Shown: positions 38,341-64,000 of the stretch, piece by piece
Numbering within the stretch: the first letter of the stretch is position 1
Layout of the letters: each line of letters starts with the position of its first letter
Made by a program: the position numbers and the translations under genes
Notes under the pieces: generated by a model
The model's input: the letters and a program-made list of their open reading frames with translations, nothing else
What the model was told of the DNA's origin: nothing
Databases searched by the model: none
Source of the DNA: Dactylorhiza incarnata
Lineage: Eukaryota; Streptophyta; Magnoliopsida; Asparagales; Orchidaceae
DNA length: 64,000 nucleotides
Assembly (NCBI GenBank): GCA_033032865.1
Contig: JAWHQI010000001.1
Coordinates: 642,001 to 706,000 of the forward strand
Direction of reading: 5' to 3'

Positions 38341-38376
38341 AGTGGATCTGAAAAGGGAATCACCAAAGGATATGGT

Positions 38377-38805
38377 ATGATCTCCAATGTCATAGTGTCA
38401 ATCACAAGGGTAGCTTATGTTGAAGGGTTGCAACACAACCTGGTAAACATAAGTCAACTACGTGATTTAGGCCATGTCATTGAATTCCACAATGACAAGT
38501 GCTTGATCAAAAAGTCTAATGACTTAGATACCATTCTCTCAGGCACTAGGAGTGGGAATGTTTATTGTTTAGATTTTATATGCAATAATTCCTTATCATC
38601 TGTTTGTCTTGTGGATAATGAAAGTAAGCTTGATACAATCATACTAGACCTTGAAAGAAGAATTTCAAATAACATTGATGACTCCCCATCTATCTGGGAT
38701 TTACCTCAACAAGGACAATGTGGTGCCCCATCTGAGGGGAGAAGCAAAAAGAGCCACCAACTGGTATTGGTGATGTTCTTGGCAAGGCCAACTAACCATC
38801 TTTAG
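38377..38805 (+). pseudogene. Element A pre-integrase domain remnant
   Basis: A 142-codon frame reads VSITRVAYVEGLQHNLVNIS, then LRDLGHVIEFHNDKCLI and a TRSGNVYCLDF ending, the usual copia pre-integrase region. Where the zinc-binding integrase part should follow, the homology ends at about 38630. No integrase, RT or RNase H sequence exists between here and the 3' LTR. Confidence 0.75.
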
Positions 38806-38838
38806 TATACCTAAGACATTAAATCTATCTCCAAATCA

Positions 38839-41514: not shown

Positions 41515-41888
41515 TCTACTTCTTCTAAGAAGAGGAAAGTTTAAATGAATGTATTTGAGTGTTATGGTCTTCTAAGTGTATATTGAACAATGTCTCATTT
41601 TCTAATATGAAATGCAAATGAATGAATTGTTGAACTGATTACTTTTTTTCCTAAGCTAATATGATCCATAGCTTAATTTCACCATGTGTTATTGCTTAAA
41701 TTATTTGTGATGCATTGACATGATTATCTAATCATATTGTAGGGTTGATAAACTCTGTGGTAATATGACTGTCATAAACATTATCTGTTATAATATTTTT
41801 GATGTCATGATGAACTCCTTGTAGTGAAGCTACATGTCAAGAATTTATGTGTAATGTACCTTAGCATTAAGGGTGTTCTGCCTTCTTC

Positions 41889-41902
41889 AAATAGGGGGAA
41901 AT
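41889..41902 (+). promoter_or_regulatory. Polypurine tract of element A
   Basis: AAATAGGGGGAAA immediately ahead of the LTR start TGTTGGGAAT. Confidence 0.85.
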
Positions 41903-43745: not shown

Positions 43746-43974
43746 TGGTTGGAACAGTGCCCAACATTGTTCCTGATTTGAAGAAGTGCTCAGCTCAATG
43801 ATAAGTGCAAGTTGTATTTAATGTCATATCTAGTTCACGTTTGCAGAAGTCGACAATATGTCAAGTACTTTAGTTATTTCACTAAGTACAATATCGTTGA
43901 GAAGAATAGGAGATGTCATCGACAAAGTATGATTGTCATCATGATGATGAGCAAAGAAAAAGCTGAGACTTGGC

Positions 43975-44260
43975 GAGTTCATCGAACGCAGAATGCTGTT
44001 CGTCGAACGCAGAATGTTGTTCGTCGAACGAAGAATGAAGTTCGTCGAACGCAAAGACAGGAAAGAAGCAAACGCTGAGACTTGGCGAGTTCGTCGAACG
44101 CAGAATGTTGTTCGTCAAACCAAGAATGAAGTTCGTCGAACGGAGAACGAGTTCCTCATCGAACGAAGAATGAAGTTCGTCGAACGCAGAACGAGTTCCT
44201 CATCGAACGAAGAATGAAGTTCGTCGAACGTAGAATGCTATTTGTCGAACGCAGAATGAA
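43975..44260. repeat. TTCGTCGAACG array in element B LTR
   Basis: About twelve copies of TTCGTCGAACG followed by CAGAATG or AAGAATGAA, at spacings of 20-30 bp. The 3' LTR copy is at 50695-50955. The same core also fills the LTRs of LARD1 and the solo LTRs at 10830 and 40479, though the surrounding sequence differs. Confidence 0.85.
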
Positions 44261-44926
44261 GTTTGTCAAACGCAGAGAAGATATGAAGATATCAAAGGAA
44301 GAAATGTCATCGAGAAGATGCAGTATCGTCGACATCATCAAAGAAGCCGTGTCATCGAGAAGATGTAGTATCGTCGACATCATCAAAGAAGCCGTGTCGT
44401 CGGAAAGGCTAAGTGAGACTGATGCCTATGACATCGTCGTAAAGAAGGCGTGACATCGAGAAGACTGAAGAAGGTCAGCTGAAGGCAAGAAGTTGCTAAA
44501 GCAGAGTCTGTCGACATGATATCGCTCATGTCATCGAAAGAACAAACTGATTACGATGACAGACTTCAAGAAAGAAGATCACGACGACGCAGTCAGAGAT
44601 TACATATCGTTGTATATGCAGAAATGCCAAAATATCTCGTATCGTCGAGATATCAATGTCAGAGGCAGAAGCTAGAAGACTTGAAGATCCACCAAGGCCT
44701 GAGGCATCGACAAAGTCCCGTCGTCGAGATATTATCCATATCGTCATAATGCTGTCAGTATCGGCATGAAGCTGGAAATATCGTCGAGATGGAATTCAAA
44801 TGTTGCGGACGCGCTGTCAGCATTTAATGCCGCCGTCTGATTGTCAAATCAGCGCGTGCTCTTAAGGAATGGGGCGTATGACACTTAAGGAACTTTTTCA
44901 AAAGTCCGTTGGGAGCCTCGCAGTCT

Positions 44927-44934
44927 TATAAAAG
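44927..44934 (+). promoter_or_regulatory. TATA box of element B LTR
   Basis: TATAAAAG downstream of the CpG motif arrays. Confidence 0.7.
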
Positions 44935-45261
44935 AGATAAGAGGTTGCCCTAGAGCAAGAATCGAAAAAGGAAAGAAAAGAATCCCGTCATTGCTTCTCA
45001 ATACAATAGTACATTTTGCGGAGAAGAAGAAGAACAAGTAGAGAACAAGAATCAAGCGTTCTCAGAAGAATCAGTCATCTCCATCGACTGATAAGAAGCC
45101 GTTCCTCATCAGGCTAAAAGAAGAGATTGAAGAAGAACCGTGCTTTCAAGATCTGAATCAGAAACATCTTCTTCAACCTCAAGTCGCCGATCTCCATCAG
45201 GCTAAGTTGCCGATCTTCATCAGGCAGAAGAAACAGTTTTTATTACTGTAAAATCTTTTAT

Positions 45262-45620
45262 TGTTGTAAGGCTTGCGGGCCTAAATGTCTAGCTTGAGGG
45301 CTGGAGAGCTGTGAGGCTTGAGGGCCAGGGCAGTGTACTTGCGGGTCCAATTTCGTCCATCAGGCTTGCGGGCCAGGGCATAGGCTAGACTTGCGGGTCT
45401 GAGCTAGGTAGGGCTTGAGGGCCTGATTGTCGAGCTTGAGGGCTTGAGACCTGTGAGGCTTGCGGGCCAGGAAAGAGGCTAGACTTGCGGGTCTGAGCTA
45501 GGTAGGGCTTGAGGGCCTGATTGTCGAGCTTGCGGGCTCGGGTGCAGTAGGGGCTTGCGGGCTTAGGCTGTAGGACATGCGGGTCCGTGTTATAAGGCTT
45601 GCGGGCCTGAAGATTTGGCG
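45262..45620 (+). repeat. CTTGCGGGC / CTTGAGGGC array in element B LTR
   Basis: About eighteen copies of GGCTTGCGGGCC and GCTTGAGGGCCTGA variants in the transcribed leader between the TATA box and the LTR end. Elements A and C have weaker runs of similar words (GGCCTGAG, GTAGGGCTG) at the same position. Confidence 0.85.
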
Positions 45621-45858
45621 GAGTTTGCCGAGCCTAGCACACTGCTAGGTAGGCGCAGAGAGAAATATGACTACTCAAGACACCCTGTCTTGAGGAACCT
45701 CTATAAGTTCTTGCGTGGTTTCTGTGTTGTGCTTTATAAATTATAGATCCATTAATCAGAAATCAAGAACATCTAAAGGGGATAAAATAAATTGAAAAAC
45801 CTATTCACCCCCCCCCCCCCCCCTCTAGGTGATAAGTTGACACCCAATAAATAACAAG

Positions 45859-45937: not shown

Positions 45938-47491
45938 ATGGAATCAAAAATATCTATTTGTTGTAAGGAAAACGTTGCCCTTTGGAAAGTTAGAGCAAGA
46001 ATATAGATGGAGGCTATGGACCCTAGAATGTTCCAAATTGTTCAAGAAGGGACTTATGTCCCCAAGAATGTGTCCAAGAAAATGACCGAAGATGAGATCA
46101 TCCTAGTCAACTTGGACAAGGAAGCCAAAGACATTATAGCTAGTGCAGTTGACTCCTCAACATTTCAGAAACTGGCTCACTGCATAACAGCAAAAGAGAT
46201 GTGTGACTCTCTAACGGTCCTTATGGAAGGATCAAAAGAAGAAAGAAGCAAAGCAGCTAAGAAGAAAGTCAGAACATTGAGTGACAGTGACTCAAGCTGT
46301 TCAGACTCAGAAGAGAAGACTCAGTTTGGGATGACTGTCCTATCTGAGTCAGAGGAAGAAATCTAGGATGAAGTCTCACCTGAACATGTATGCATAAGGG
46401 CTCCTCTATCTACCTCAGACTCAGAATCGGAGACTAGCTCATCTAGAAATGATGACTGGTCCAAGTCATACAATGATCTTCTAGAAGATGTCAAGATGCT
46501 CAAGATGTTATGCAAGGAGCAGGATGCAAAGATCTCCTATCTTCAGGCAAGAAATCTTGATCTCTCAGAGAAAGCAGAAAAACTAACTCTAGAGAATGCA
46601 GAGTTTTGTCAACTCAAAAAGGACTTCAAGGCAAGCTCCAACCTTGACTTGATAAGCAAATTTGGGAAAACTCTGAAGGCATTGATTGAGAGCAAGGAGC
46701 TGTGCTGCTCACTAACCAGAGAAGTGGATCTTCTGAAGAAGGATAAAATTCAGCCCAAAGTCCTGAAATCTAAGATTGACAACACCAGAAGGGTGGAGGA
46801 TAAACTCCCCTTTGTAGTGAAGCATGTGGCAAGCTCCTCCAAACCAGATACCTCTCCTCCACTGGTAAATGGTTGTTGCTCCACTCAAAGAAGGGAGCAG
46901 GGATGCTTCAAGGAAGACAGATCAGGCAGACCCTATGGGATGAAGGCTGGCTTAAGAAAGGTAATCTCACCCTCCAACAAGAATGCTGGGCAATCCAATC
47001 TTGGGTATCTCAAGAATGGGAGCTCCACAAGTGGAGCAAAGAACATGCCAAAAATCTCAAGGGTACCTCATGGAAGGATGGCCACAAAGAGGCATGAAGT
47101 TAATGAGTCTACAGAAACAAAGAAATCACTAAAGAAGACAGACATCAGATGGAAAGCCGTGGATGATGATTGTCAACATCATGCTCACAATCAGTACAGA
47201 TCAGTATCCTTCAAATATCCTTATGTTCATACTCAAAGGACTCATGATCACACAGCTAGCCAGAGAAGGAGATACAACAGGTTTGAATGCTGGTGCTGTG
47301 GAAAGACTGGGCACTTTGCAATTGATTGTTGGTACAATCCAACTGCTCCAAGGGTAACGAATGTTAAACCTGCAAATCGTCTTGTTCATTATCACTATGC
47401 ATAACCTGGAGTAGTTAAATCCAGTATGCCCGTTAAAGCTAACAATTTCCTAGGACCCAAATTTACTTGGGTACCTAAGGGCTTGTAATCT
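45938..47491 (+). pseudogene. Element B gag, internally deleted
   Basis: ATG at 45938 opens a frame with a stop 22 codons on (46004-46006). The frame 46007-46366 reads MEAMDPRMFQIVQEGTYVPK and CITAKEMCDSLTVLMEG, homologous to element A gag. Right after that block it jumps to a Ser/Asp-rich stretch: compared with A, the rest of the gag N-terminal domain and the first knuckle are missing. The frame 46496-47404 gives a coiled coil (ISYLQARNLDLSEKAEKLTL) and an intact CCHC knuckle CWCCGKTGHFAIDC at about 47287-47328. The closing GPKFTWVPKGL (47453-47488) is the usual gag-pol border. No protease, integrase or RT follows. Confidence 0.8.
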
Positions 47492-47659
47492 CATTTTGCA
47501 GGTAGTCCAAGAGCCCACGAGAAGCAAATCCGGGCCTTGGACAAGGTGGTTGTTCTGACCCACCGGCAGAACAGTAAAGTCTATTTACTAACAAACTTGG
47601 TGCAGGTTATCCTACTAAAAGGGGCCTAAAGAGCTGACGTTAGCTGAATAAGTCTTGGA

Positions 47660-47760
47660 ATCTATAATCGACGATATGTTACGACGACACAATAGATGTT
47701 ACGATGACAAATGATCAAGTTGGGAGGATGCGTATCGTCAAAATACAATCGATCTATAAA
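47660..47760. repeat. Internal CpG motif cluster of element B
   Basis: ATCGACGATATG, TACGACGACAC, TACGATGACAA and GTATCGTCAA within 100 bp between the gag end and the extra ORF. The same words occur in the element B LTR (ATATCGTCGAGAT, TACGATGACAGAC, CACGACGACGC). Confidence 0.7.
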
Positions 47761-47839
47761 TCACGGGATTGGATCGGTCCATCGGAGCCGTCTGATCGCT
47801 CTTTCTTTCAAAGGTATGCGCCTCTTCACCTACCGACAC

Positions 47840-47847
47840 TATAAATA
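47840..47847 (+). promoter_or_regulatory. Internal TATA box ahead of the element B extra ORF
   Basis: TATAAATA, 116 bp upstream of the ORF start at 47956 and about 80 bp downstream of the motif cluster. The start context AATCAATGGC is good for plants. Together they look like a separate promoter within the element. Confidence 0.6.
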
Positions 47848-47955
47848 GAGTGAATGCTCGAGAATAAAAACTATGCTATCATTTGCCCTAAGCTATTCCG
47901 TCGACAAACCCTTGCTTCGCCTCCGACGTACTGCCTTCTCTCTCACTCCGAATCA

Positions 47956-48777
47956 ATGGCTCCCAAGAAAGAAGAAGTGATCTCTGGTTGTGAACTCCAG
48001 CGAGGGGGCTTCAATGCCTGCTCCGATGAGATTAGGTCAGTAATAGGGTTGCTGGAGGCATCTGGGCTGCAATATATGCTATGCAAACCCTCGGTTCTTC
48101 TCCACCGTGAATTAGCAGAATTTTTCGCCGAAGCAAGAATCAACCACACTGAATCCCAGATCAAGTCCACAGTGGGAGGTAAGAAAGTTAAAATATCTGC
48201 GAAAAGCCTAAGAAAAGCACTGCATCTGCCAAGAATCCAAGGGGGGAGGAAGAAGAAGAGCTGACCTCAGAGAATGTGTCCGCAAGCTACACCTGGTGCG
48301 GCCACACAGGGAAGACCTACGGGTCCATAAAGAGAGCAGAATTTAATCAAAAGGGGAAGTTGCTGGCCAACATTGTTGGCAAAGTTCTGTTGTGCAAACC
48401 TGGGAAGTTGCTGGCCACACAGGGAAGACATGTTCGCTGTCATGGCCCACATAATCCACTTTAAGAAGACCAACTGGAGTGAGTTCCTCTTCCAAAGAAT
48501 GAAGAACACCCTGAAGTCTCCTTCCTACGGAAGAATACTGTCCCTCTACCTTCTAAACACCCAGGGTGAAGTACTGAATAAGAAAATGGGAGTTCCCCTA
48601 TATTACTCCAAGAGACTGGATGCGAAGATGCTAGATCGATGGGATAGGTCTATCCCTAAACCATCATCTGATGCCCAGTCTGCTCCAAAGAAACAAAAGG
48701 AACAAGCATCACAAATAGATCCCTCGGAAGAAGAAGGTTCATCAAGCAGTTCTGATGACATACCTCCACCCCCATAA
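47956..48777 (+). pseudogene. Extra ORF of element B, N-terminal domain, frameshifted
   Basis: ATG at 47956 opens MAPKKEEVISGCELQRGGFN and continues to 48264 with HRELAEFFAEARI and GGKKVKISAKSLRKALHLP. This pattern resembles the domain annotated as putative plant transposon protein in many plant genomes. After a frame change the frame 48373-48777 continues (AHIIHFKKTNWSEFLFQRMK, then ILSLYLLNTQGEVLNKKMGV) and ends in a Ser/Asp/Pro-rich acidic tail. About 100 bp between the two pieces are disturbed. No membrane segment or signal peptide is visible. Confidence 0.65.
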
Positions 48778-49836
48778 ATCCCTGGTACGGCTGAGGGGGA
48801 GACTTCCACCCCAAGGGATGTTCCAGGAACAGTACCAGAACCTGCTCCCACATAGGTTATTGAAGAAAGTAGAGACCCCAACTTAGGGAGTGTTCCCGTT
48901 GAGGGGGAGTCCCAACTTGGGAGCTCAGCCCAAGATGCAGAGATGATTGATGGTGAGCTCCCGGCAGGGGGCTCAGCCCAAGGTAATGCACAGGTTGAGG
49001 GGGAGACCCAACTGGGGTACTCTGCCCTAGAAGATCAAGGAAATGAGCTCATGGAATTAATCATTCTCTCAGACTGCCGAGAGTTAGTAGCAACAAGTAA
49101 GATTGTGCTTGCATTCCCTGGTGAGACAGTACCAGAAAATGTCAAGGGGAAGGCTAAGGTAACAGCACATATCAGTGAAGAATCATCTGCAAATAGCTCT
49201 GAAGAAATTCCATAGGAAAGAGAAGAGGAAGACGAACAAGCTGCTGAGCCATCTTTGGCTCAGTCAGGTTCTCTTTTCCACATGATGTCAGCTCTACTAA
49301 CAGCTCAGCGCAAACAACTGGAACAATTTATAGTAAATACTGTGGACAATCTAAGGATAGAGGTGAAGGGGGAGATCCAGGAAATGAAGAAAGATATACT
49401 CCACCTCAACACACAGTGCGCTCACTTCTACACATTGGCAGCCCCGGCCATAGAGAAGATGAGCGAGGAAATCAACAAAGTGGGACATCAAACCCACACA
49501 ATCCTGACAGAGCAAGAAACATTCTCAAACAATGTGTACTACGGTTTTGAGCAGATAGAAAGAGATGCTACAAATAACAGAAATCAAATTCTGAATAAGG
49601 TCAATGAGAATGCTCATACCTTAGATACCCATCTGCTTGAAATAAACAACAATTTGGATGTGACTGAACAACACATGCATGAACAGCTGAATCTAGTCAG
49701 AGAAGGACTTAAGGAAAGGGTGATTGAACAAGCCCTAAAGGGGGAGATTGAAATAATAAACGCCAGTTCACATCAAGCGATGTGGATAACAAATCAAATA
49801 AAGCAGACAATGCAAAAACCCCCCATCATTATATGA
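48778..49836 (+). pseudogene. Extra ORF of element B, coiled-coil part
   Basis: Following a stop at 48775-48777, acidic and Gly-rich sequence (frame 48943-49215) leads into the frame 49255-49836, which is almost entirely heptad-like (IEVKGEIQEMKKDILHLNTQ, NNRNQILNKVNENAHTLDTH, LNLVREGLKERVIEQALKGE). It matches in type and position the coiled-coil ORF of element A. Decayed basic sequence continues to about 50235. Likely one original protein of N-terminal domain, acidic linker and coiled coil; role unknown. Confidence 0.6.
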
Positions 49837-50449
49837 AGCTGCCAACCCTTCTGCAAGCACTGAATCAACTGAGTATGGAATAAAATTTGGAGAATCAGCA
49901 ACCTCCAGGAAAAGAAAGAGAATTCAGAGCATCCAGTATCAGCAAAAGAGATTGAGGGAAATTGAGCTGGATCCACAATCAGGAAGGTGGAGTCCTGTCT
50001 CAAGAGAAATAATAACATAATCATGGATCCATTTTGGATATCCTCAGGAGGACTATCAGAGGGCATACCAGTCAGTTGAATGGCAGAAACATCTGAAGAA
50101 GCTGGAGAGGAGGAAGAATCACAGGCTAGCATTCCCACAAGGTCCTCCCCCCTCTCCTAAGAAGATTCCCCTGCCCATCAACTACTATCAGAGGCAAAGG
50201 AAGAAAACCAAAGGGGCAAGCAGCATCAGACACTGATGGGGCACCAATTTAAAATCTTAATTATTCTGCTAGGGCAAATGAATGCTAATGATTATTCATG
50301 AACATTTATTCTATTTATATGCTTGACATTTATTGTGAAGAACATTCAATCTATTTATGTGATTGCTGCTTTATGTGTGATGTTATGATCTGAAATGATA
50401 AATCTTTTCATGAGTGACATTTATCATTGAGGTAAGTTAGGGCTTCTTC

Positions 50450-50463
50450 AAATAGGGGGAGAT
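50450..50463 (+). promoter_or_regulatory. Polypurine tract of element B
   Basis: AAATAGGGGGAGA directly ahead of the 3' LTR start TGCTGGGAAC. Confidence 0.85.
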
Positions 50464-51049
50464 TGCTGGGAACAGTGCCCAACAGTGTTCCTGATTTGAA
50501 GAAGTGCTCAGCTCAATGATTAGTGCAAGTTGTATTTAATGTCATATCTAGTTCATGTTTGCAGAAATCGACAATATATCAAGTACTTTAGTTATTTCAC
50601 TAAGTACCATATTGTTGAGAAGAATAGGAGATGTCGTCGACAAAGTATGCTTGTCGTCATGATGATGAGCAAAGCAAGAGTTGATACTTGGTGAGTTCGT
50701 CGAACGCAGAATGTTGTTCGTCGAACGCAGAATGCTATTCGTCGAACGAAGAATGAAGTTCGTCGAACGCAAAGACAGGACAGAAGCAAACACTGAGACT
50801 TGGCGAGTTCGTCGAACGCAGAATGCTGTTCGTCGAACAAAGAATGAAGTTCGTCGAACGCAGAACGAGTTCCTCGTCGAACGAAGAATGAAGTTCGTCG
50901 AACGCAGAATGCTGTTCGTCGAACGCAGAATGAAGTTCGTCGAACGCAGAGAAGACATGAAGATATCAAAGGAAGAAATGTCGTCGAGAAGATGCAGTAT
51001 CGTCGACATCATCAAAAAAGCCGTGTCGTCGAGAAGATGCAGTATCGTT
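50464..51049 (+). mobile_element. Element B 3' LTR, first piece
   Basis: Matches 43746-44340 closely. Interrupted by LARD1 at 51050; continues at 60363-60602, where it is interrupted again by LARD2 at 60603. The remainder lies beyond the window. Confidence 0.88.
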
Positions 51050-52687
51050 TGTTGGATCGATAAGCGCCCTTAGAGGGGGGGGGGTGAATAAGGGAATAAA
51101 AATTCTTCTTTATAATTTTAGACAATTTACTAAATTGTTTTGTAATATGAAAAGGGGAAAATAACAATTTAGCTAATGTAATTAGAATTGAAAACTTTGT
51201 AACCAATATTTAGAGATTATGCCAAATGATAGAAATCAAGTAAACACAAATAGAGACATGATTATATTTATATAAAAAGGTGTTTACATAAATTTGATTT
51301 CAATATCGCTAGAAATCGGAGGCGTACAAATGTAAATATCTTTTCCTTTTCTATACCGACTTGTATCCCCACAAACCGGTTAGCTTTAGCCTATCCTTCC
51401 ACGGATAAGGCCTCAAGCCGCTCTAACCAATCCTTCCCCGGATATGGACTCGATCCCCTAGATCTAATCACCTAGAACTAGTCGCCAACACAAGGCGAAT
51501 TCCTCCCTAAGTCCTACCCAGACCTAGTCGCCAACACAAGGCGAATTCCTCCCTAAGTACTACCCAGACCTAGTCGCCAACACAAGGTGAATTCTCTAAA
51601 CGGTTACAAAAAGTATGAAATGAAAATAATGATAACAATTATAAAAAACTCCCTATATGAGATCTTCTGAAGTCGGAGATGAAGGATCGCTGTAGTATGA
51701 GCGAGGTCGAAGCGATCGTCCTTCGGATGTAGCGTGACGTAGTCCTCCTCCAGAATTCTCCTTATGCTTTTAGTGGGAGATCCATCTTCGGCAGCATAAC
51801 AGCAATAGAATTGTGGCACTTGCAACCTCTCTGGGATGGATGCACCAACACGAGAAAGAGCCCATCAATTTATAGAACTTGAAGATAGCGCCTGCGGTAG
51901 CTCCTAGCGCCTGCGGTAGCGTTCGTGTGGAACGGTTGTGAAACCGTCGGCGGCGTGGCGCTGTGCACGAACTTGAGATAGCGCCAGGCGGTAGTGCTAG
52001 CGCTGGCGGTAACATTCGTGTGGAGCGGTTGCGAAACCGTAGGATGCGTGTCAGAACAATATTTCATCGAACAAAATAGAATTCGTCGAGCGCGCCTTCG
52101 TCGAACGCATCCTTCGTCGAACGAAAAAACTGCAACCTTCTGGATCGTGCAAACTGCCAAGGATCGAGACAGAACCAACTTTCGTCAAACGGAATCGATT
52201 TCGTCGAACGGAGCTTCAAGTTCGTCGAACCTAGTTGTCGGTCGTAATGTCGTCGAGCGCAGGCTCAGTTCGTCGAACGGAGCTTCTCGTTCGTCGAACG
52301 CAACTTGTCGAGCACAAATTCTTCGAGCGCAGCAAAATTCATTGAACGGAGCTCCTCGTTCATCGAGCGCAGCTTGTTGAGCAGGAGCTCAGTTCGTCGA
52401 ACTCCAATTCATTGAGCGGCCTTCACATTTCTTCGAACGAAATATTCGTCGAACGAAATTTTTGTCGAACGCAGGCAAATTCGTCGAACGGAACCTGAGC
52501 TAGCGCCTAGCGGTAGCTCTAACGCTGGCGGTAGTGCATTCTTCAAGATGTTTGAATTCAGTTGATTTCTACATGTGGAGTATTGCACCTATAGTTCCTG
52601 CACACTATAAATACACGACAAGCAAGATCAAATACAATTTGGGATTTGTTATTCTCAAACAAAGGGATGTGACACGCATGTCCAATA
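51050..52687 (-). mobile_element. LARD1 3' LTR
   Basis: The plus strand starts TGTTGGATCGATAAG and ends GCATGTCCAATA (last block changed from TCCAACA). It has a G-run with GTGAATAAGGG at 51067, TATA box at 51867-51874 (minus), and the motif array at 51883-52505: two TAGCGCCTGCGGTAG units next to the TATA box, then many TTCGTCGAACG units. Confidence 0.88.
51867..51874 (-). promoter_or_regulatory. TATA box of LARD1 3' LTR
   Basis: TATAAATT on the minus strand; the nearest TAGCGCCTGCGGTAG motif begins 9 bp upstream. The 5' LTR has the same arrangement at 59542-59549. Confidence 0.65.
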
Positions 52688-52703
52688 ATCTCCCCCTTTT
52701 GAT
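52688..52703 (-). promoter_or_regulatory. Polypurine tract of LARD1
   Basis: Minus strand AAAAGGGGGAGAT directly ahead of the 3' LTR. The same sequence adjoins the LARD2 LTR at 61869-61884. Confidence 0.85.
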
Positions 52704-55700
52704 AATAACAAATCATCTTAGCAAGAAATCAACAATAGTGTTTATAGTATATGATAAGCAAGATGATAGTGCAACTATAGTATATGATAAGCATGATGAT
52801 ATGCATACTCCCCCTATCTTAATGCTCCCCCTACATAAATGCAATTTATGTTTTACTCCCCCTAAATGATAGATGAATTATTCTCCCCTTAATCTTCTAT
52901 ATTTCTCCTATATAGATTTCTTCAATTAATCTCCCCCTTTTGGTATTATCAAAAGAAGGTAGGGTGAGGGTAGTAAGGAGGCATTCTTTAGGCTAGTTAT
53001 AAATCATGATCGAGCTTTTGTAATATATGAAATGATAAAGAGTTTAAGCATAGTATATATAAGAGATTTCAAAAAAAAAATAGATAAGAGTTGTAAGCAA
53101 GCGGAAGATTATAAGAAACATCTTTTTGTAAGCATGAAAAGCATAAGTAAAAATATGAGTTTTAGTTCAAAACTGAAAGATGTTTTAACCTTTTTAAAAT
53201 CTCAAAGTTTTTCATAAAGATACCAAGCATGAAATGAACATATCAAAGAAAGATTATACTACAATGTTACTTAATTTTAAGTTCAAGAGATACCAAAATA
53301 TTGTAGATATCATGCTAGGTTATCTAGTGCATTTCTTATATAAAGAGTAGTATAGATAAAACATTAGAATCCAATACTCATGAGAAGAAGTGTTATGAAA
53401 GATAATGATGTGCACATAAGTGTATTTTGTGTAATGTTAACAATTGATTTAAAATCAACAAAATACAAGACATATGTAAAGTAAAGTGCACAATGAAACA
53501 CAAGTATATTACTTTCACACACTTTAATGCACACTATTTTATAAAAAGTGGTGTATTAATCAAGGGTTGCACAAGAACTTTACTATTCTTTCCAAGGTGC
53601 TCAACCTCACAATGCTTATAAAGACTTATCAGGAGATTCAAGTAGTGCTTGGTGGAGTTATAGTTGTCTACATATATAATTTTTTTGTTCATATTTGTGA
53701 GACAACATTCTTCGAATACACTTGTTTTGCAAACCCAATTTTTTAACTTAACCACTTTTCTAAATTTCATAAGTGCAATTCAAATGTAGTGTAGGCAATA
53801 AACTTATGCAAGTTTTAATTCATTGTACAAATACAATACACAAGCAAGCATTTTTAGATTTAAACACACATGTTGATTACCAAAATAGGTGAGTGAAATG
53901 TATCATTATCAATCATAAAACATTTACTCATACTTAGAGGCATGCTAAGCTTGGTTCTACACATATTTTTCAATACAATTGATGCACTTTAAATAAATAT
54001 ATCAAAGCATGATAAACAAAACAATGTTCATAGTAATTTCAAGAAATAAATTTTAACATTGTAAATAATTCTAAATAATAGAATTCATTCATGCTTGATA
54101 TTTGCAATAAAGATCATATAGTTTTCTTTTATCATTTTTAAAGAGAAAGAAAAAAAAAACAGAAAAAAGAACACAAAAACATATTTTTGTATTTTTGAAT
54201 TTTAAACTTTTGTAGTTGATTTTTAATAATATGAATAAAACACAAATCTCAAAAACATATTTTTGTATTTTTTAATTTTGAATTTTTGTAGTTGATTTTT
54301 TTAAATATAAATTAAAACAAAGATAATAAATGTCAGAAATTCAAAAAACAAATTAGTTAATATAAACAAACATATTTTTAAGGATTCTTAGAAATTTTAA
54401 AAATCAGAAAAATCAAAAACCCATGCTAGCGCCGGAGCTAGTGATAGCGCGACAAACAGCACGTGATTTTTTGAGAATTTTTAATTTTTGATTTTTGATT
54501 TTGATTAAGTGTCCTTAGAGTAGTCTTATGCAGAACTTCTGTAATTTTTGGAGATGTCTTGATTTCTCAAATTTGCATAAAACTATAGCTTTTTCAAATA
54601 CATGTGTTTTACAAAAACATTTAAGCTCAAAAAGATAAATTATGCAAACACAAGAGGACATTTTTTATTAAACAACCCAAAATATGCATGATTTAAGTGA
54701 TAAGTAAATAAAATGATCATGCGAAGAGTAATATAAGTATGTCCTAAGATTAAAGACTACCCCAACTAAATGTCTACACCCTAGCCCCATACTAAGTGAC
54801 GGATGGGCATGAGGAGCTGCACGCATGCCGTAAGTTAGGGTGTTAGTCCCATGTGCATACACTAGAGAACGCTCAACCTAGCACTCTTTCCCCCCAGTGC
54901 CTCGCAAGGCCCCACTGGAACCCTCCCCGGTTAAGGACAAGACATGACTTAGAGGTTAGGTTTCTAATGCATACAACCATACGCCTCCGCTATTGTGAGA
55001 TATGAAGTCATAGGTGAATAATCCTTGGACAATCTATGCTTTTAAACTATGGGTTGATTTATAAACTATGGGTTTTGTTTAATGTGATGAGTTATATAAA
55101 GCCGCATAGTATTTCTACTTTTATGAGATGACGATATGAGATAACTAGCACAATTACAAATATTCAATAAGTGACAATGCTAGTATGATGAGTTTAGGGT
55201 TTAATGTCACATCATAAATTAACATCAATATTGCATGTATTCCAAAATAGAGTTTCAAATTATAGATCTAGAATAGTGTGATGATTTAGTTTGATTTATT
55301 CTTATTATTACAAAGTTGATTCTAGAGTCTACATATATGTGAGATACATGCAATCAATAGCAAAGCATATCAATACACCAAATAATGGAAAGAAATACAT
55401 AATTCATTTTTTTATCAGAAGATTCATAATTCCTAGGTGATAGACATCATTGATTTGAGATATTTCTTGATAGAACATGAATTATAATTATAGAGAATTT
55501 TGCATAGAATATATGTTAGATCATCAAGATGAATGTGAATTCTATTCCTTCTAGACTTATGGCAATTATGATTTGATGATTTTCTTTTGAATGAGCAAGT
55601 TTAATTTGTAAGTCTACAAAATGATGATCATGCAATCATATCAAAGACAAAGATCACACATATAACGTTTTGAAATTTATAATAAAATTGCACTCAATAA

Positions 55701-57120
55701 TTTGACTTTATTGATCTTTGGTTTTGCATGATAATATATGATTCATGATACACAATTCATATATATTCTAATGATTAATCCATAAACTATGTGTTTGTTT
55801 GGAATTTTGGTATTCTATTATAATTTCAAAATCACATAGATATCATGAAATTTGAATAACATTGTAAATATTATACCTAACATAAATATATAAGCATAGA
55901 CCAAGAAGTGATGCTAGGATGATGAGTTTGAGTGCAATGTTATTATATATGATTTAATGGAGATAATGTTGCATGTAATATGAGAAGATTTCAAATTAAT
56001 TTTCTTTAGATCTAGAATGAAATGATTATTCTATTTGATTTCATCTTCTTGATATCAAGTTAATTCTTAGATCTAAATATAATGAGATAGATGAAAATAA
56101 TAGAGATACATATCACACACAAAATAAGATATGAAACTATAATATCAATAGCCATCACATATTTCATAATTCCTAATGTTGATAGTATTAGATGATTTAA
56201 GATGATTCTTGTTAGATCATGAATTATGATATATGATTATAGTGAATTTTAGCATATGATATTAATAGATCATGGTGGTGATTATATAGTTCATATTCAT
56301 CCTTTTTAATATGTAGTGACTGCTTGTAAAGTGAATATTATACTACATATATATAAAGGACAAAAAATGTTTTGGCTATTTTGAATTGTTTTGTAAATTT
56401 TTATTTTTGATCTTAATACAAGATATCTGAAAGAAGAGGATAACGATACTTAACATAATTTTCCAGAAAATAATAATTAGAGAAATCAGAATTTTTTATA
56501 AAAATAAGCTACCGCCGGCGTTAGTGATAACGCCGGGCGTTAGCAACTCATGGTTTTTGATTTGCAATTTTGAGTTACAATTTTTGATTTAAAAACACAT
56601 GGTTTCTTTTATATCATTTAATTCCGATATTTCTTGATTATGATTATTCAAAATAGGGGCTATCATATGCAACAAAGAAATTAGACAAGAGTCAAAAACG
56701 TTGCGCATTTTAGCTTAAGCCCTTTAATAAACCATTTAAATCCAATCTTTAAAATAGTTTCAATAGTCTTGATAATAATTTCAATATTCAATTTCTAATG
56801 ATAATTCAAGACAATTAAGGGTAAAGGATTTAAAAGGATAAAGAACAATCAAAGATGAGAGATAGATCACTTTGAAAAATATATGACTTAATGTTCAATT
56901 TTAATTCAAATTTGATTTGATAAACATTAGGCTTAATATATGAAAGTCACAATTCATGATATATAAAGTGATCATAGCATGTTTGTTCAAAAAATAAACA
57001 AATAAAAATAAACAAAAAAAGTGACAATAAGCATATCATAAAGTAGAGTAGTGATATTTCATTTTTATTTGTTTATACTTCATGCAAATGAATGGATATT
57101 AATGAATGAGAGATTTAGGT
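52704..57120. other. AT-rich non-coding interior of LARD1
   Basis: No domain recognised on either strand. Visible structure: a 105-bp tandem duplication at 54165-54310; a GC-richer island at 54755-54990; a diverged direct repeat (about 55160-55720 and 55890-56340, sharing GATGATGAGTTT, TTGCATGTA, TTAGATCTAGAAT and TTTGATTT blocks); and two blocks of the LTR motif, GCTAGCGCCGGAGCTAGTGA at 54425 and GCTACCGCCGGCGTTAG at 56509. Confidence 0.6.
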
Positions 57121-57129
57121 ATCCAAAGG

Positions 57130-58663
57130 TGACCAAGTGGGATGGTTCCTTTGGGTACCCAAATACATCGAGGTGGCTTTTGGGAAGATAATGATGAATG
57201 GGCTTTTACAATTAAAGATGATATTTCATTTTTTCTTTATGGGTCTCCATTCATACATTGGTTGTTTATCACTTAAATCCATATAATGATTATGTGACAT
57301 CTTTATATGATGATAGTTGTTTGAAAAATAATTCATTGTGGGTTTATGTTCATTCAACTTATTTTTCAAAATAGCTTGATGTTGATAATCATAATGAATT
57401 TTATTATATGGATTCTTTGAAAGTTTATAAGAGTGATTGTCTTTCTTTAGAAGTGATTGTTGAAAGAGTGGGTTACAATATGTTTTAAAAGATTGATTCT
57501 TATTTTGATGATTTTCATTTCCACTCTTTCTTATAGACATACTCTTATAATGTGACGGAAAATATTTTATAGTTTGATTTTTATGAAAATGAGTTTTTAA
57601 ATTTGAGTCATGATTGAAAATATATTTAGACTTATAATAGTGACTCTTAAGAATTTTGTGAGGGTCATAATTCTTTTTGTAACTAAACTCCTTTTGAGTT
57701 GATGTGTGAAAATGATTCTTTTTAGAAATGATTTTGTAAGTTAATTTATCTTTGTTATTCAAAATCTTATGATGAATGACATTACTAGAAATTAGAACTT
57801 TTTCAACAAAAGATTTTAATTGTCTTATTACAAGTTAAAACATCATTTTCAATTATCAATTTTTCATTATGCCTTTTTGAAATTAAGAGCCCTTTTTCAA
57901 TATCCTTGAATTTTTCTTTTAATAGATTGCAATCAAAACAAGGAGTAGGAATTTCAACTAAAGAGCAAGATGGAGAAGCAACATCATAATTAGATTCTAC
58001 ATTAACATTAGCTTTTAACCTTTTATTTTCTAAATGTAATTTATCATTTGTACTTTTCAATTTCTTAATTTTACGTTAAGCAACTTGTAGCATATGTAAT
58101 GTGGAAATAGAATTAGTCACAAAGATAGAAGAATTTGATTTACTTACATTGCTATCGGGAGAGGCAAGATTTGAACATAAAGTTCCTTTAACATCTTTTT
58201 GACACTCCTCTTCCAAAGATAACATTTCTTCTTCTCTTTCACTTGATGTGCTCTCCATAGTTTCATCCTGAGAGATTCTTTCTTGATTGATTGTGCCAAT
58301 TTGAATGTTTTTCAAATGTTGTGCATGCTCCAAACCTATACAAAGATCAAACATTTCAATAAGAAATTTCCAAACTTTGTAAGCATTAGTAAAACAATAA
58401 ATCAATTTGGAAATGACTTTTGATAAAGCACAAAATAAAGTATTCATAGCCTTCGCATTTAAATGACATTCCAATTTATTTGATTCATTCGTTGGTCTTA
58501 TAATTGTCGTATTCCAAATTTTGATATCATATGAGTTAAAAAAAGATTTCATTAATATTTCCCACCCTTTATAATTTTTGCCTTCAAATAAAGGTGGTGC
58601 CAAAGATTTTTCATTTATAAGAAAATTTCCCCCACTAGTAGAGGCGAGATCATGAGACGCCAT
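57130..58663 (-). pseudogene. LARD1 gag
   Basis: ATG at 58661-58663, 38 bp past the primer site, opens MASHDLASTSGGNFLINEKS and the copia gag block FEGKNYKGWEILMKSFF. The frame runs to 58076 (196 codons) with VWKFLIEMFDLCIGLEHAQH. After frame changes follow a coiled-coil and Cys block (58060-57803: CFDCNLLKEKFKDIEKGLLI) and a His/Asn/Lys-rich stretch (57762-57226). A decayed CIWVPK block near 57165 marks the usual gag end. No CCHC knuckle was found. Relative of the gag in elements A and B but shorter. Confidence 0.75.
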
Positions 58664-58696
58664 TATTCCTGGTTTATAAACCGTTTGGAATAACCT

Positions 58697-58710
58697 CCCT
58701 CTGATACCAC
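58697..58710 (-). promoter_or_regulatory. Primer-binding site of LARD1
   Basis: GTGGTATCAGAGGG on the minus strand, one base from the 5' LTR end; initiator tRNA-Met type. Confidence 0.9.
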
Positions 58711-58711
58711 T

Positions 58712-60362
58712 TGTTGGATCGATAGGCGCCCTTAGAGGGGGGGGGGGGGGGGGGGGGTGAATATGGGAATAAACATTCTTCTTTATAATTTTAGACAATT
58801 TACTAAATTGTTTAATAAAATGAAAAGGGGAAAATAACAATTTAGCTAATGTAATTAGAATTGAAAACTTTGTAACCAATATTTAGAGATTATGCCAAAT
58901 GATAGAAATCAAGTAAACACAAATAGAGGCATGATTGTATTTATATAAAAAGGTGTTTACATAAATTTGATTTCAATATTGCTAGAAACCGGAGGCGTAC
59001 AAATGTAAATATCTTTTCCTTTTCTATACCGACTTGTATCCCCACAAACCGGTTGGCTTTAGCCTATCCTTCCCCGGATAAGGCCTCAAGCCGCTCTAGC
59101 CAATCCTTCCCCGAATATGGCCTCGAGCCCCCTAGATCTAATCACCTAGAACTAGTCGCCAACACAAGGCGAATTCCTCCCTAAGTCCTACCCAGACCTA
59201 GTCGCCAACACAAGGCGAATACCTCCCTAAGTCCTACCCAGACCTAGTCGTCAACACAAGGCGAATTCTCTAAATGGTTACAAAAAGTATGGAATGAAAA
59301 TAATAATAACAATTATAAAAAACTCCCTATATGATCTCTTCTGAAGTCGGAGATGACGGATCGATGTAGTATGAGCGAGGTTGAAGCGATCGTCCTTCGG
59401 ATGTAGCGTGACGTAGTCCTCCTCCAGAATTCTCCTTAAGCTTTTAGTGGGAGATCCATCTTCGGCAGAATAACAGCAACAGAATTGTGGCACTTGCAAC
59501 CTCTCTGGGATGGATGCACCAACACGAGAAAAGAGCCCATCAATTTATAGAACTTGAAGATAGCGCCTGCGGTAGCTCCTAGCGCCTGCGGTAGCGTTCG
59601 TGTGGAGCAGTTGTGAAATCGTCGGCAGTGTGGTGTTGTGCACGAACTTGAGATAGCGCCAGGCGGTAGTGCTAGCGCTGGCGGTAGCATTCATGTGGAG
59701 CGGTTGCGAAACCGTCGGCTGCGTGACAGAACAATATTTCATCGAACGAAACAGAATTCGTCGAACGCGCCTTCGTCGAACGCATCCTTCATCGAACGGA
59801 AAAACCGCAACCTTCTGGATCGTGCAAACCGCCAAGGATCGAGACAGAACCAACTTTCATCGAACGGAATCGATTTCGTCGAACGGAGCTTCAAGTTCGT
59901 CGAACCCAGTTGTCGGCCGCAATGTCATCGAGCGCAGGCTCAGTTCGTCGAACGGAGCTTCTCGTTCGTTGAACGCAACTTGTCGAGCACAAATTCTTCG
60001 AGCGCAACAAAATTCGTCGAACGGAGCTCCTCGTTCGTCGAACGCAGCTTGTTGAGCAGGAGCTCAGTTCGTCAAACTCCAATTCGTCGAGCGGCCTTCA
60101 CATTTCATCGAACAAAATATTCGTCGAACGGAATTTTCGTCGAACGCAGGCAAATTCGTCAAACGGAACCTGAGCTAGTGCCTGGCGGTAGCTCTAACAC
60201 TGGCGGTAGTGCATTCTTCCAGATGTTTGAATTCAGCTGATTTCTACTTGTGGAGTATTGCACATATAGTTCATGCACACTATTAACACACGACAAGCAA
60301 GATCAAATACAAATTGGGATTTGTTATTCTCAAACAAAGGGATATGACACACATGTCCAACA
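58712..60362 (-). mobile_element. LARD1 5' LTR
   Basis: Plus strand TGTTGGATCGATAGG to CATGTCCAACA, 1651 bp, near-identical to 51050-52687 throughout, with a longer G-run (58737-58757). TATA box at 59542-59549 (minus) and motif array at 59560-60185. The close similarity of the two LTRs suggests a fairly recent insertion. Confidence 0.9.
59542..59549 (-). promoter_or_regulatory. TATA box of LARD1 5' LTR
   Basis: TATAAATT on the minus strand with TAGCGCCTGCGGTAG units directly upstream. This would drive the element RNA. Confidence 0.68.
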
Positions 60363-60602
60363 TCGTTGACATCATCAAAGAAGCCGTGTCGTCGGAAAGG
60401 CTAAGTGAGACTGATGCCTATGACATCGTCGTAAAGAAGGTGTGACGTCGAGAAGACTGAAGAAGGTCAGCTGAAGGCAAGCAGTTGCTAAAGCAGAGTC
60501 TGTCGACATGATATCGCTCATGTCATCGAAAGAACAAACTGATTACGACGACAGACTTCAAGAAAGAAGATAACGATGACACAGTCAGAGATATCATATC
60601 GC
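60363..60602 (+). mobile_element. Element B 3' LTR, second piece
   Basis: Resumes with TCGTTGACATCATC and matches 44330-44615 of the 5' LTR. The first five bases, TCGTT, are the target duplication of LARD1 (partner 51045-51049). The last five, ATCGC (60598-60602), are the expected target site of LARD2. Confidence 0.86.
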
Positions 60603-61386
60603 TGTTGGATCGTGTGACGCCCTTAGAGGGGGGGGGGGGTGAATAAGGGCCTTTTATAGATTATGAATTTTACTTAAGAATTTTTTAAACAGATTTTACT
60701 TTTCAAAAAATTACTTATAAACAATTTTAAACCAATGCAATTTTTGTATTAAACCAAACACAAATTTCTAAGATAAAGATTTAAGCAAACAAATTTGCAA
60801 TTAATGAAAGAAGAATAATTATATTAATCATGAAATTTACATACAATAAAATGATCTTAACAATGCTTAAGATCAATGCACAAATATGATAATATAAATT
60901 TCAATAATCTTGATTTTACCAATCCTTCTCCCAAGGATCGGAAGGCTATCGCTTGTCTTTCCCAAGACCAAGCCCAAGCCTATTCTCTAGATCTTCCCAA
61001 GATCTAGACGTAGCACACAAGGCCACGATTTCCTACCAAGCCACGCAAGGACTTGGACGCTCCGCACAAGGAAGCGATTTTCCCCTAAGCCACGCAAGGA
61101 CTTAGACGCCGCACGCAAGACGACGATTTCCCTACCAATACAAATGAAATGTATGTAAATGAAAATACAATATGAAAAGAACAACTCCCTAGAAATTCAG
61201 ATCTCTGAAAAGAAGGTTGAAGCCTCGAGATGATCGTTGATGTAGAAGCGCGCCCGATCTCGTCTTCAATCTCAATCCTTCTTTACATAAATGGGAGTTG
61301 AAGAGGTTCTGGAGCTCTCTGGTTCGTATGCACTCAGGAAGGGACTTGGAATTATCAATGTATAGAATGCACGAACACAAGGAGTC

Positions 61387-61394
61387 AATTTATA
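61387..61394 (-). promoter_or_regulatory. TATA box of LARD2 LTR
   Basis: TATAAATT on the minus strand, about 11 bp from the first TGTCGCC motif. Confidence 0.68.
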
Positions 61395-61404
61395 GAAATT
61401 CTCT

Positions 61405-61715
61405 ATCGCCTGGGCGACATCGACTGTCGGAATTTCCGACAGCGCTAAACTGCCGTTGTAGTGCTGTCGTGCGTGCAGTTGCTGTAACCTCCGAGCTGTC
61501 GCCTGGGCGACATCGATGTCGGATTTCCGACAGCGCAAAACTGTCGCACGTAGTGCTGTCGTGGGGGCAGTTGCTGTAACCTCCGAGCTGTCGCCTGGGC
61601 GACATCGTTGTCGGATTTCCGACAGGTCAAAACTGCCTTTCGTCGTGCTGCCGCGGGGAAAGTAGTTGTAACTTCTCTGCTGTCGCCTGGGCGACATCAG
61701 CTATCGGAAAATTCC
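61405..61715. repeat. Palindrome pair array of the LARD2 LTR
   Basis: Four units, each made of TGTCGCCTGGGCGACA (7-bp arms) and a TGTCGG-AATTT-CCGACA palindrome (up to 9-bp arms), spaced about 95 bp apart. The same pair occurs twice inside the element at 63198-63241 and 63771-63812. Confidence 0.9.
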
Positions 61716-61884
61716 GACAGTGAAATTTTCCTACACTCAAATTGAGCTCCAGCAGAAATGTGAACATCTAATACCTGTTACCTGCACACCATTAATAAAA
61801 AATAGAATCAAATACAACGGGACTTTGTTATTATCAAACCGGAGGAGTGCGAAACGCATGCTCCAACAATCTCCCCCTTTTGAT

Positions 61885-63197
61885 AATAACAAATCCGTAT
61901 AAAAAAGAAATCATGTCTATTTAGGTTTTTGATTTTTAACATATGGTGTGTGCACAAAAATAACATGATATATTCCTCTTAAAATAAATAATCTCCCCCT
62001 AGATGAATGCTTCTCCTAAATGAATACTCCCCCTAAATTAATGCTCCCCCTAAATGTTAAAGTAAGTTGAAATGATGTATTGTTTAGGTGGAATATTTAG
62101 GTGTAATAGTTGTTTGATTTCTTGAATATACTTAATTCTCCCCCTTTTGGTATTAGCAAAAGATAATATGAGATAAATTAGTTGTTCTTAAGGGAAGAGA
62201 TAGGATGTAAAAATAAGAGTAAGCGAAAGCACTTGCTGGGAAAATGATTGAAGGTCTCGAAGTAATAGGAATATGCCATAGTATTGAATAAACTCATGAA
62301 GAGACGGTATAGCTATATGAAGTAATAAAATAAAATAACTTAAACATGATTAAGGTCATTTGAAAGTATCATAGAAAGACACAAGTGTATAGAAATTTGG
62401 AATATTTTCGGTCCAATTCTCATGAGATGAATGTTTATATAACATAATGATGTGTACATGTGTTACTTAGATCAAACATATGAAGTTATTTAATGTACAT
62501 GATCATTGGAATTGAGAACATAATAGAAGCATATAAAGACAACTTTGACCTTGAAGATATATCACAAGAAGAATAGAATACCATTTTTCTTTTGCACAAG
62601 ACACTTTACAATTCTTTCCAAGGTGCTTAACCTCACAATGCTCATTAAGACTTATCAGGAGGGTAAGAAGTGCTTGGTGGAGTATCCTTGTCTTTAATTT
62701 AAATTTTTTTGATCACATATTTTGTGATATCTTAATTTTGAGATTTTTATAATTTTTTTAATTGACCAAGGATCTCCGAATTCACTTGAATCGCAAAAGA
62801 TGGTGTATATTTGGTTGTGCTAACAAATTAAGGTTGAAAGTAGTATTTATGAAGGGCTATTGTATTATGTTAAAGCAAATATGATTCATGTATATATTAA
62901 ATAGAAAAACATATGTATGGATCAAAAGAAGTGAACGTGATAGTTCATTATTATATATAAACAATTTCTCATACTTAGAGGCATGTGAAAACAATTTCCA
63001 ATGGTCTAAACAACTAAGTAGGAGTGTCAATATGATGATAGCTTGGAAATGAAATCATATAATCATGTAAGAGCCATTTTAAAAAAAAAATAAAAAGCAC
63101 ATGGTGTGGCATCAATTCATGCGTTGTAGTATTAATAAAGACATAACTATTGGAAAACATCAAAGGGACCAAAAACTAAAGATTTAAGCAAATCGGG
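61885..63197. other. AT-rich interior of LARD2
   Basis: No coding region, domain or repeat recognised. The first 150 bp resemble the same position in LARD1 (CTCCCCCTAAATGAATGCTCC-like lines), so the elements are sisters. Confidence 0.5.
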
Positions 63198-63241
63198 AGC
63201 TGTCGGAAATTTCCGACAGTCACTGTCGCCTGGGCGACAGG
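63198..63241. promoter_or_regulatory. Internal copy of the LARD2 LTR palindrome pair
   Basis: CTGTCGGAAATTTCCGACAG followed by TGTCGCCTGGGCGACAG ends 7 bp before a plus-strand TATA box. In the LTR the same pair lies just upstream of the minus-strand TATA box. Confidence 0.75.
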
Positions 63242-63247
63242 TAAAAA

Positions 63248-63255
63248 TATAAATA
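63248..63255 (+). promoter_or_regulatory. Internal plus-strand TATA box of LARD2
   Basis: TATAAATA, antisense to the element. A transcript starting about 30 bp on would run through a short leader into a splice donor at 63351. Confidence 0.6.
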
Positions 63256-63350
63256 CGGCTGTAGACCGAGTCAAACCCTATTGTGCATCATTTCCTGGAG
63301 TTAAGGACGAGAGGAAGCTGTCGGATTTCGGCGACAACCCTAGATATAAG

Positions 63351-63867
63351 GTATGGGGTTTTTGATTTTGAAGTTTTTGACTTAAAACCTTTAGAGATTT
63401 GTGATTTTGGAAAGGAGAGAAGATGAAAGATGTGGTTTTCAGTTTACCTTTGATTAATGGTGTAGATCTTTGAAGTTTTGTGTACTAAAGGTGTAGATCT
63501 AGTGTAAATCAAGTGGATCTTGGTAGATCTTGGTAGATCTAGTGTAAATGTTGTGATTTTTGGGGTTTAAGTGTTTGATTTTTTACATTATTTAATTTCA
63601 AAAATGGAAGATTTTTCTTTTGTAGAAGGTTGAAGAAGATGAATAGTGAGAAGATGTAGTTTTGATCTAAAAATTTTTTTTAGAAAGATGTTAAATCAAA
63701 TATGAAATATAGCTTGATTTTGAGTAGATCTGGAAGTGAATTTAAAAGATTTCAAGAAAAGTTCACTGGAGTACTGTCGGAATTTTCCGACAGTCAATGT
63801 CGCCTGGGCGACATCGTTCCAGTGCACAGAACATGTTTAATCCATTTTTGTTATGTTATGATTGCAG
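63351..63867 (+). other. Predicted intron of the antisense gene in LARD2
   Basis: Donor ATAAG|GTATGG at 63350/63351 and acceptor TTATGATTGCAG at 63867. The interval is 517 bp, T-rich (many TTTTTG runs) and stop-rich, as plant introns are. A second copy of the palindrome pair lies in it at 63771-63812. Predicted by eye only. Confidence 0.5.
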
Positions 63868-63868
63868 A

Positions 63869-64000
63869 ATGGCTTCCAGTTCTAAAGCGCGAAGGAGTAC
63901 GTCTGAAGATGCGCATAGTTCGTATCAAGTTTACCCTGGAATTGAGAAAACCATAGTTGGAGTAGCGAAATATGTTGAATTTGACTCCCCGAAGCAGGAT
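63869..64000 (+). CDS. Antisense ORF in LARD2, 5' end, runs off the window
   Basis: ATG at 63869, two bases after the predicted acceptor, in context CAGAATGGC. It is open for all 44 codons to the window end (MASSSKARRSTSEDAHSSYQ, then a GIEKTIVGVAKYVEF block). The Ser/Arg-rich start resembles the beginnings of extra ORFs in plant retroelements, but I recognise no domain. It lies on the strand opposite to the element's own direction. Because most of it is outside the window, product and integrity are unknown. Promoter and splice signals upstream support a real transcription unit. Confidence 0.5.
   Translation, partial: MASSSKARRSTSEDAHSSYQVYPGIEKTIVGVAKYVEFDSPKQD

Follow-up and report, generated by a model that had tools for sequence, protein, structure and literature searches.

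The 64,000-nucleotide stretch of Dactylorhiza incarnata DNA analysed here (GenBank assembly GCA_033032865.1, contig JAWHQI010000001.1, positions 642,001 to 706,000; hereafter the window) is a nest of long terminal repeat (LTR) retrotransposons, delineated by self-comparison and from neighbouring stretches, with coordinates continued past the window. Three of these elements, called B, C and 'LARD2', contain an extra open reading frame (ORF) with short words of the LTR clustered ahead of it. A preliminary description of this DNA had proposed that LTR regulatory modules were copied inside the elements, where array plus TATA unit would work as a portable promoter for the extra protein. Taken as a whole, the observation was partly confirmed by our analysis and the interpretation was partly supported.

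The 'LARD2' element and its antisense gene

The features of 'LARD2' are as follows.

60606-71658 (continued past the window), minus strand: 'LARD2', inserted in the 3' LTR of element B
60606-61871, minus strand: 3' LTR of 'LARD2'; its partner LTR, 70394-71658 past the window, is 97.3% identical
61403-61720, minus strand: four palindrome-pair repeats in the LTR, then TATAAATT at 61387-61394 in element sense
63200-63240, plus strand: internal palindrome pair that precedes the antisense gene, CTGTCGGAAATTTCCGACAG-TCA-CTGTCGCCTGGGCGACAG
63248-63255, plus strand: TATAAATA, 7 bp past the palindrome pair
63351-63867, plus strand: putative intron in the 5' untranslated region (5'UTR), with GT donor at 63351-63352 and AG acceptor at 63866-63867
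63774-63813, plus strand: second palindrome pair, within the intron and near the acceptor
63869-64000 in the window, stop codon at 64856-64858 outside it, plus strand: antisense extra ORF, 329 aa, PF20167-like

Past the window, 'LARD2' continues with pol frames, a 667-aa gag frame and the second LTR, and its Pfam matches are Retrotran_gag_2 (E 5.4e-25), gag_pre-integrs (1.3e-15), rve (2.4e-17) and RVT_2 (2.2e-40). Since it has gag-pol frames it is not a LARD; the name under which it was first described, that of a non-coding element, is excluded by this coding capacity and is kept here only as a handle. Judged by its domains and the following traits, the element is a gag-pol Copia retrotransposon with Sirevirus hallmarks. 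A polyC tract ends the LTR at its 3' side (as in B), multiple polypurine tracts precede the 3' LTR (a 17-bp unit with CCCCC, 4.4 copies, 61985-62056), and a repeated palindromic motif lies in U3 upstream of the TATA box. The polyC end and the repeated purine tracts are given as Sirevirus traits in Bousios et al. 2010 (PMC2829016), cited here, like the other papers below, from excerpts.

The module ahead of the antisense gene resembles that of the LTR in both order and spacing. In the LTR it runs GCTGTCGGAAATTCCGACAG, linker, TGTCGCCCAGGCGAYAG, 8 bp, TATAAATT; at the internal site, on the opposite strand, it runs GCTGTCGGAAATTTCCGACAG, TCA, CTGTCGCCTGGGCGACAG, 7 bp, TATAAATA. The palindromes are 18-20 bp long with a half-site spacing of 4 to 6 bp, and alignment of the two modules scores 52 against a maximum of 29 in 200 shuffles. 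As TATAAATA occurs ten times on the plus strand and five times on the minus strand of the 64 kb, simple arithmetic puts the chance of a same-strand copy at about 1% within about 95 bp, and at 0.1-0.2% within 10 bp.

Conservation was followed in 20 aligned copies, taken from 39 other copies listed among 2558 candidates. All the parts of this unit that the preliminary description had named (the pair, TATAAATA, donor, acceptor and ATG at 63869, on the opposite strand) were located; GT, AG and ATG are unchanged in 20/20 copies, while TATAAATA is intact in 17/20 and replaced by TATAAATG in the other three. From 122 scored copies (8473 candidates) we chose ten further ones at 92-93% protein identity. 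Nine of these ten have a TATAAA that precedes the ATG by 612-636 bp; the promoter pair consists of perfect dyads in eight, of a single dyad in one and is missing from one, and the intron pair retains at least one dyad in all ten and both in seven. A third internal pair was found past the stop codon (65013-65052; 6/8 copies examined), and a fourth, partial cluster of palindrome half-sites lies within the gag frame (68673-68697).

The linker of the promoter pair is TCAC in 20/20 copies, that of the intron pair is TCAA in 18 and TTAA in 2, and the LTR pairs examined have others. With a linker of its own the promoter pair has been kept as a separate site, so that fresh copying from the LTR, as implied when the modules were called copied, is not supported; the internal sites look old and separate from the LTR. 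Derivation of the module from a nested LTR was also considered and is disfavoured, the 20 aligned copies holding the module, partly decayed, in the same place. With CpG excluded, the pairwise difference is 0.031 in the promoter palindromes and 0.033 in the intron pair; the sequence immediately upstream has 0.050, the 5'UTR 0.059, the remaining intron 0.084 and the ORF 0.055.

The product of the antisense ORF matches PF20167 with E 3.4e-9 and 37.3 bits, below the curated cut-off of 45. In Pfam searches up to E 1 the only other match was Lectin_N (E 0.084, chance-level), with none to DUF1985 or DUF287, and no PDB match was found up to E 1. A search for other families with PF20167 scored 150 of 8771 candidates. 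Over the first 244 codons the ratio of non-synonymous to synonymous differences (pN/pS), a descriptive count pooled over all pairs of related copies, is 0.31, compared with 0.83 and 1.15 in the shifted frames; we read this as signs of purifying selection.

Motif clusters in elements B and C and the rest of the nest

The density of LTR words was examined along the interior of five elements. Test words were 6-mers that occurred at least four times in the U3 of an element, or in its whole LTR in the case of A and LARD1, with an enrichment of 4-fold or more relative to the five interiors; they were counted per 120 bp and compared with 300 dinucleotide shuffles. This threshold was set once and not tuned, but after the result with exact 8-mers was known. 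In 'LARD2', B and C the interior maximum falls just ahead of the extra ORF and was reached by 0/300 shuffles each: 26 words at 63199 in 'LARD2' (shuffle maximum 9), 17 at 47615 in the 4.56-kb interior of B (shuffle maximum 12) and 13 at 31115 in C (shuffle maximum 6). No peak was seen for the whole-LTR words of LARD1 (top count 4, reached by 162/300 shuffles) or of A (top count 4, reached by 296/300). With exact 8-mers and 200 shuffles, the peak was reached by 2 shuffles in B, by none in C or 'LARD2', by 100 in A and by 54 in LARD1.

Element B has the following features.

about 43748-45858, plus strand: 5' LTR, with U3 motif arrays at about 43976-44790 and TATA at 44927
46007-47404, plus strand: gag region, Retrotran_gag_2-like with a zinc knuckle, both under the Pfam cut-off
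47615-47745, plus strand: internal cluster of U3-enriched words
47840-47847, plus strand: TATAAATA ahead of the extra ORF
47956-48264, plus strand: first open part of the extra ORF, in sense orientation
50464-51048, plus strand: first piece of the 3' LTR; further pieces at 60362-60605 and, past the window, at 71659-72929

No pol was found downstream of the gag region. Having gag only, B shows just part of the gag, integrase and RVT_2 set of a Copia Sirevirus, and its U3 motifs are repeated, not clearly palindromic; from its sequence we class it as a gag-only relative of the Sirevirus-type Copia elements. We aligned 17 copies, picked from 39 other copies listed among 1942 candidates. Scored against their own U3, 16/17 have their peak at 47600-47800, and TATAAATA at 47840 is intact in 16/17; the TATA window has a pairwise difference of 0.027 (CpG excluded), in the lowest 6% of windows. 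The claim that LTR words of B recur ahead of its extra ORF thus stands for U3-enriched words, but only short words are shared. Of the two words named for it, TACGATGAC does occur twice, in the LTR (44552) and at the internal site (47700). ATCGACGATATG has a single occurrence in the window, at 47667, and is absent from the LTRs there, and all 17 copies differ from the window inside this first cited word; the exact-word reading was dropped for B and U3-enriched 6-mers were used instead.

The first part of the extra ORF of B has a pooled pN/pS of 0.35, and the two alternative frames give 0.94 and 1.01. The signal is weaker in the later frames of this ORF (0.56, 0.78 and 0.45), and a shifted frame is lower for one of them (0.53) and for the first gag piece (0.41). 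Pfam gave sub-cut-off matches only, to a BRCA2 repeat (E 0.009) and to PF20167 (E 0.036, 14.4 bits).

Element C lies on the minus strand, to the left of element A.

28800-29357, minus strand: U3, with repeated TCGACG/CGTCGA words; the LTR start adjoins a GGGGG purine tract
30737-30973, minus strand: first part of the extra ORF, in sense orientation
31115-31395, minus strand: internal motif cluster between the end of pol and the extra ORF, including TCGACGTTACGTCGA in the window copy

The Pfam domains of C are RVT_2 (8.6e-37), gag_pre-integrs (1.1e-10) and rve (1.4e-8). Its U3 has the motifs, and no TATA was seen in it by eye. The window copy was aligned with ten others. As first described, LTR words recur at 31120-31395, with 3 to 10 CGTCGA/TCGACG words in each of the 11/11 sequences; a perfect TCGACG(N2-3)CGTCGA palindrome is present in 3/11, and TATAWA occurs within the cluster in 3/10 copies. 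The best local match between U3 and the internal site scores 32 against a shuffle maximum of 29, which is barely significant. The ATG at 30973 is kept in 11/11 sequences; the ORF of the window copy is interrupted by a stop that most of the ten other copies do not have.

Other members of the nest are as follows.

34354-43122: element A, preceding B
40517-41514, minus strand: LTR-like fragment nested in A; it has a TTCGACGAA array of its own and shares 59% identity with the LTR of a Copia element that lies downstream, outside the window
about 51049-60361, minus strand: LARD1, inserted in the 3' LTR of B

The 3' LTR of B was interrupted first by LARD1 and then again by 'LARD2'. Element A was considered as a fourth case and rejected: its linker array scores 29 with B words and 36 with LARD1 words, but these foreign words match because the LTR-like fragment is nested there, and the array is not a promoter of A. 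There is a weak indication that A has retained a B-like extra ORF in its 3' part alone.

The word TTCGTCGAA is repeated in the LTRs of B and LARD1 and in a LARD1-like LTR near 11-12 kb (sites within 44000-44220, 50696-50936, 52097-52480, 59757-60136 and 11829-12056). At the cut-off of the self-comparison the B and LARD1 LTRs show no longer match, and a common trans-factor or a common motif is possible for the LTRs that bear this word. Tandem arrays of GC-rich palindromic units of 37 bp (10067-10295), 19 bp (20224-21097) and 27 bp (23103-23447) look like the motif arrays of the other elements. A complex of direct and inverted repeats of 319-400 bp, 93-98% alike, occupies 7004-8389 and is adjoined by a 45-bp tandem array (8390-9499). 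Just past the window, at continued coordinates 73340-81349, lies a Copia element that, judged by its 99.5% identical LTRs and single long open gag-pol frame, is a recent insertion.

A separate transcription unit and the alternatives to it

We propose that the accessory gene of these Sirevirus-type Copia elements is a transcription unit of its own with an LTR-like promoter, and put the probability of this at roughly 0.7. The promoter would be built like that of the LTR: first a family motif in several copies, which is palindromic in 'LARD2' and to some extent in C, and then, in 'LARD2' and B, a TATA box. Most likely, a common factor would bind the family motif at the LTR promoter and at the accessory gene, and one such factor would activate the accessory gene along with the main transcript. 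The 'LARD2' gene, antisense to gag-pol and with its putative 5'UTR intron, could not be read from the 5' LTR promoter and would need a promoter of its own. The sharing of motifs, their geometry, the conservation of TATA, splice sites and ATG, and the indications that the 'LARD2' and B ORFs are under coding constraint are direct observations. Transcription, splicing and the binding factor are what we infer from them. Support for a candidate second unit whose promoter is LTR-like is good in 'LARD2', because order and spacing of palindromes and TATA are shared, the splice sites are conserved and the gene is antisense; in B the support is moderate and in C weak.

Several results weigh against this proposal. 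Palindrome pairs of 'LARD2' are found within the intron and past the stop codon as well, and this indicates that 'promoter' is not the whole story, and the C-terminal part of its ORF has a pN/pS of 0.60. The conservation of its promoter palindromes (lowest 11% of windows) and of its intron pair (lowest 18%) is modest; together with the window ranks in B, this makes the support from conservation moderate. Direct alignment of the U3 and the promoter of B is no better than shuffles (24; mean 21.3, maximum 31), showing that the two share only short words, and the motif stretch of B is as variable as its flank (pairwise difference 0.054 in both, CpG excluded). By exact 8-mers the B site comes first in only 3/17 copies and belongs to the top 5% of windows in 11/17. 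In C, TATAWA is found between the motif cluster and the ATG in 0/11 sequences, and the ORF piece is without clear constraint (pN/pS 0.61, compared with 0.68 and 1.00). That the three elements have three different motif sets was too strong a statement, since B words peak at the C site too (13 at 31265).

The strongest competitor, to which we give somewhat less than an even chance, is that the motifs are common binding sites of plant transcription factors, brought together wherever a promoter is needed. The TGTCGG/CCGACA half-sites form inverted pairs, and TGTCGG resembles the half-site of auxin-response factors (ARF); TTCGTCGAA, moreover, is common to the LTRs of several elements. ARF pairs, however, prefer a spacing of 7-8 bp, unlike the 4-6 bp found here, and host sites of this kind would hardly account for motif pairs past the stop codon. 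Chance, with CG-rich words that happen to precede ORFs, would draw on the B results, where the direct alignment is not significant, 2/200 shuffles reach the 8-mer peak and few copies have the site on top. It is a very improbable reading in view of the enriched words that no shuffle matched in any of the three elements, their recurrence in 16/17 copies of B, the words kept in every C sequence and the length of the palindromes in 'LARD2', for which it is already disfavoured.

Two further readings appear unlikely, to about the same degree. The palindromes could act as twin hairpins in the element RNA (in packaging, processing or small-RNA production) and not as DNA sites: both sites tested fold into two clean hairpins (z -5.0 and -5.2), and variable arm spacing suits a hairpin. 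But perfect dyads yield hairpins trivially, the distance to TATAAAT is 7-8 bp at both the LTR and the internal site, and Rfam gave no match in 60000-64000 at the gathering score. Alternatively, the accessory protein itself might bind the family motif, both in the LTRs and at the sites surrounding the gene that encodes it, and counter silencing, as a retrotransposon counterpart, by analogy, of the VANC anti-silencing system with an antisense, intron-bearing gene and with motif and protein co-evolving. The 'LARD2' pairs at promoter, intron and past the stop recall the VANC21 motifs, which occur upstream as well as within introns (Hosaka et al. 2017, PMC5735166); the motif sets differ in part between families, and the ORF appears to be under purifying selection. 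On the other side, no DNA-binding domain was found in the Pfam and PDB searches, PF20167 being a family without a stated function, and neither DUF1985 nor DUF287 was matched; the motif sets of B and C overlap, and 4 of the 13 motif-bearing Sireviruses of PMC2829016 have motifs but no ENV gene.

Comparison with known systems

Many SIRE elements have an extra ORF, 74% of them one in sense orientation (Neumann et al. 2019, PMC6317226). According to Bousios et al., palindromic repeated motifs occur in 13 Sireviruses; in the linker, motif copies are present in the nine ENV-bearing elements and in none of the four others, 77/79 of these copies being upstream of the ENV gene. An internal promoter was suggested there and none conclusively identified. 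As this plan was published in 2010, our proposal is not new in kind. 'LARD2' shares with the Sirevirus motif its CG-rich, high-copy palindromic nature, its place in U3 before TATA and its copies ahead of an extra gene. Unlike the ENV-like ORF of those excerpts, which lies in sense after pol, as the ORFs of B and C are in sense, the 'LARD2' gene is antisense, with a TATA box spaced much as in the LTR and with a conserved intron in its 5'UTR; further motif pairs lie in that intron and past the stop, and the plan is kept in the gag-only B.

Antisense genes are known from Gypsy elements. Like the 'LARD2' gene, gene23 of maize Grande is an antisense accessory gene between pol and the 3' LTR with its own promoter (reviewed by Vicient and Casacuberta, PMC7264820), but Grande is a Gypsy element, unlike the Copia 'LARD2', and the excerpted review tells of no sharing of LTR motifs. 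A 2025 study of Retand (PMC11963269) similarly places antisense ORFs between pol and the 3' LTR; these encode TRP28, predicted to bind DNA, and are often near family-specific tandem repeats. Retand too is Gypsy, its product is TRP28 (PF04195) and not PF20167, and the excerpts mention neither shared LTR motifs nor TATA. The Athila ORFs (PMC11728184) belong to PF20167 (Transposase_32), the Pfam family that the 'LARD2' protein matches weakly, below the cut-off; Athila again is Gypsy.

The resemblance to VANDAL/VANC consists in element-specific short motifs in noncoding DNA including introns, in tandem and varying between related families (PMC5735166). VANDAL, however, is a DNA transposon, and VANC has DUF1985/DUF287 where the 'LARD2' protein is PF20167-like; the likeness is one of analogy and not of membership. 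A search of the open literature found no Sirevirus in which these motifs accompany an antisense extra ORF, a result that, as mainly open papers were covered, is weak evidence of novelty. What appears new is the antisense version of the plan, with TATA and a conserved intron, a PF20167-like product under apparent purifying selection and palindromes around the gene. The 'LARD2' family has thousands of first-look candidate sites in the genome, and with the exact start sites and motifs that its antisense unit offers, both the internal promoter suggested in 2010 and a VANC-like role become testable in a single family.

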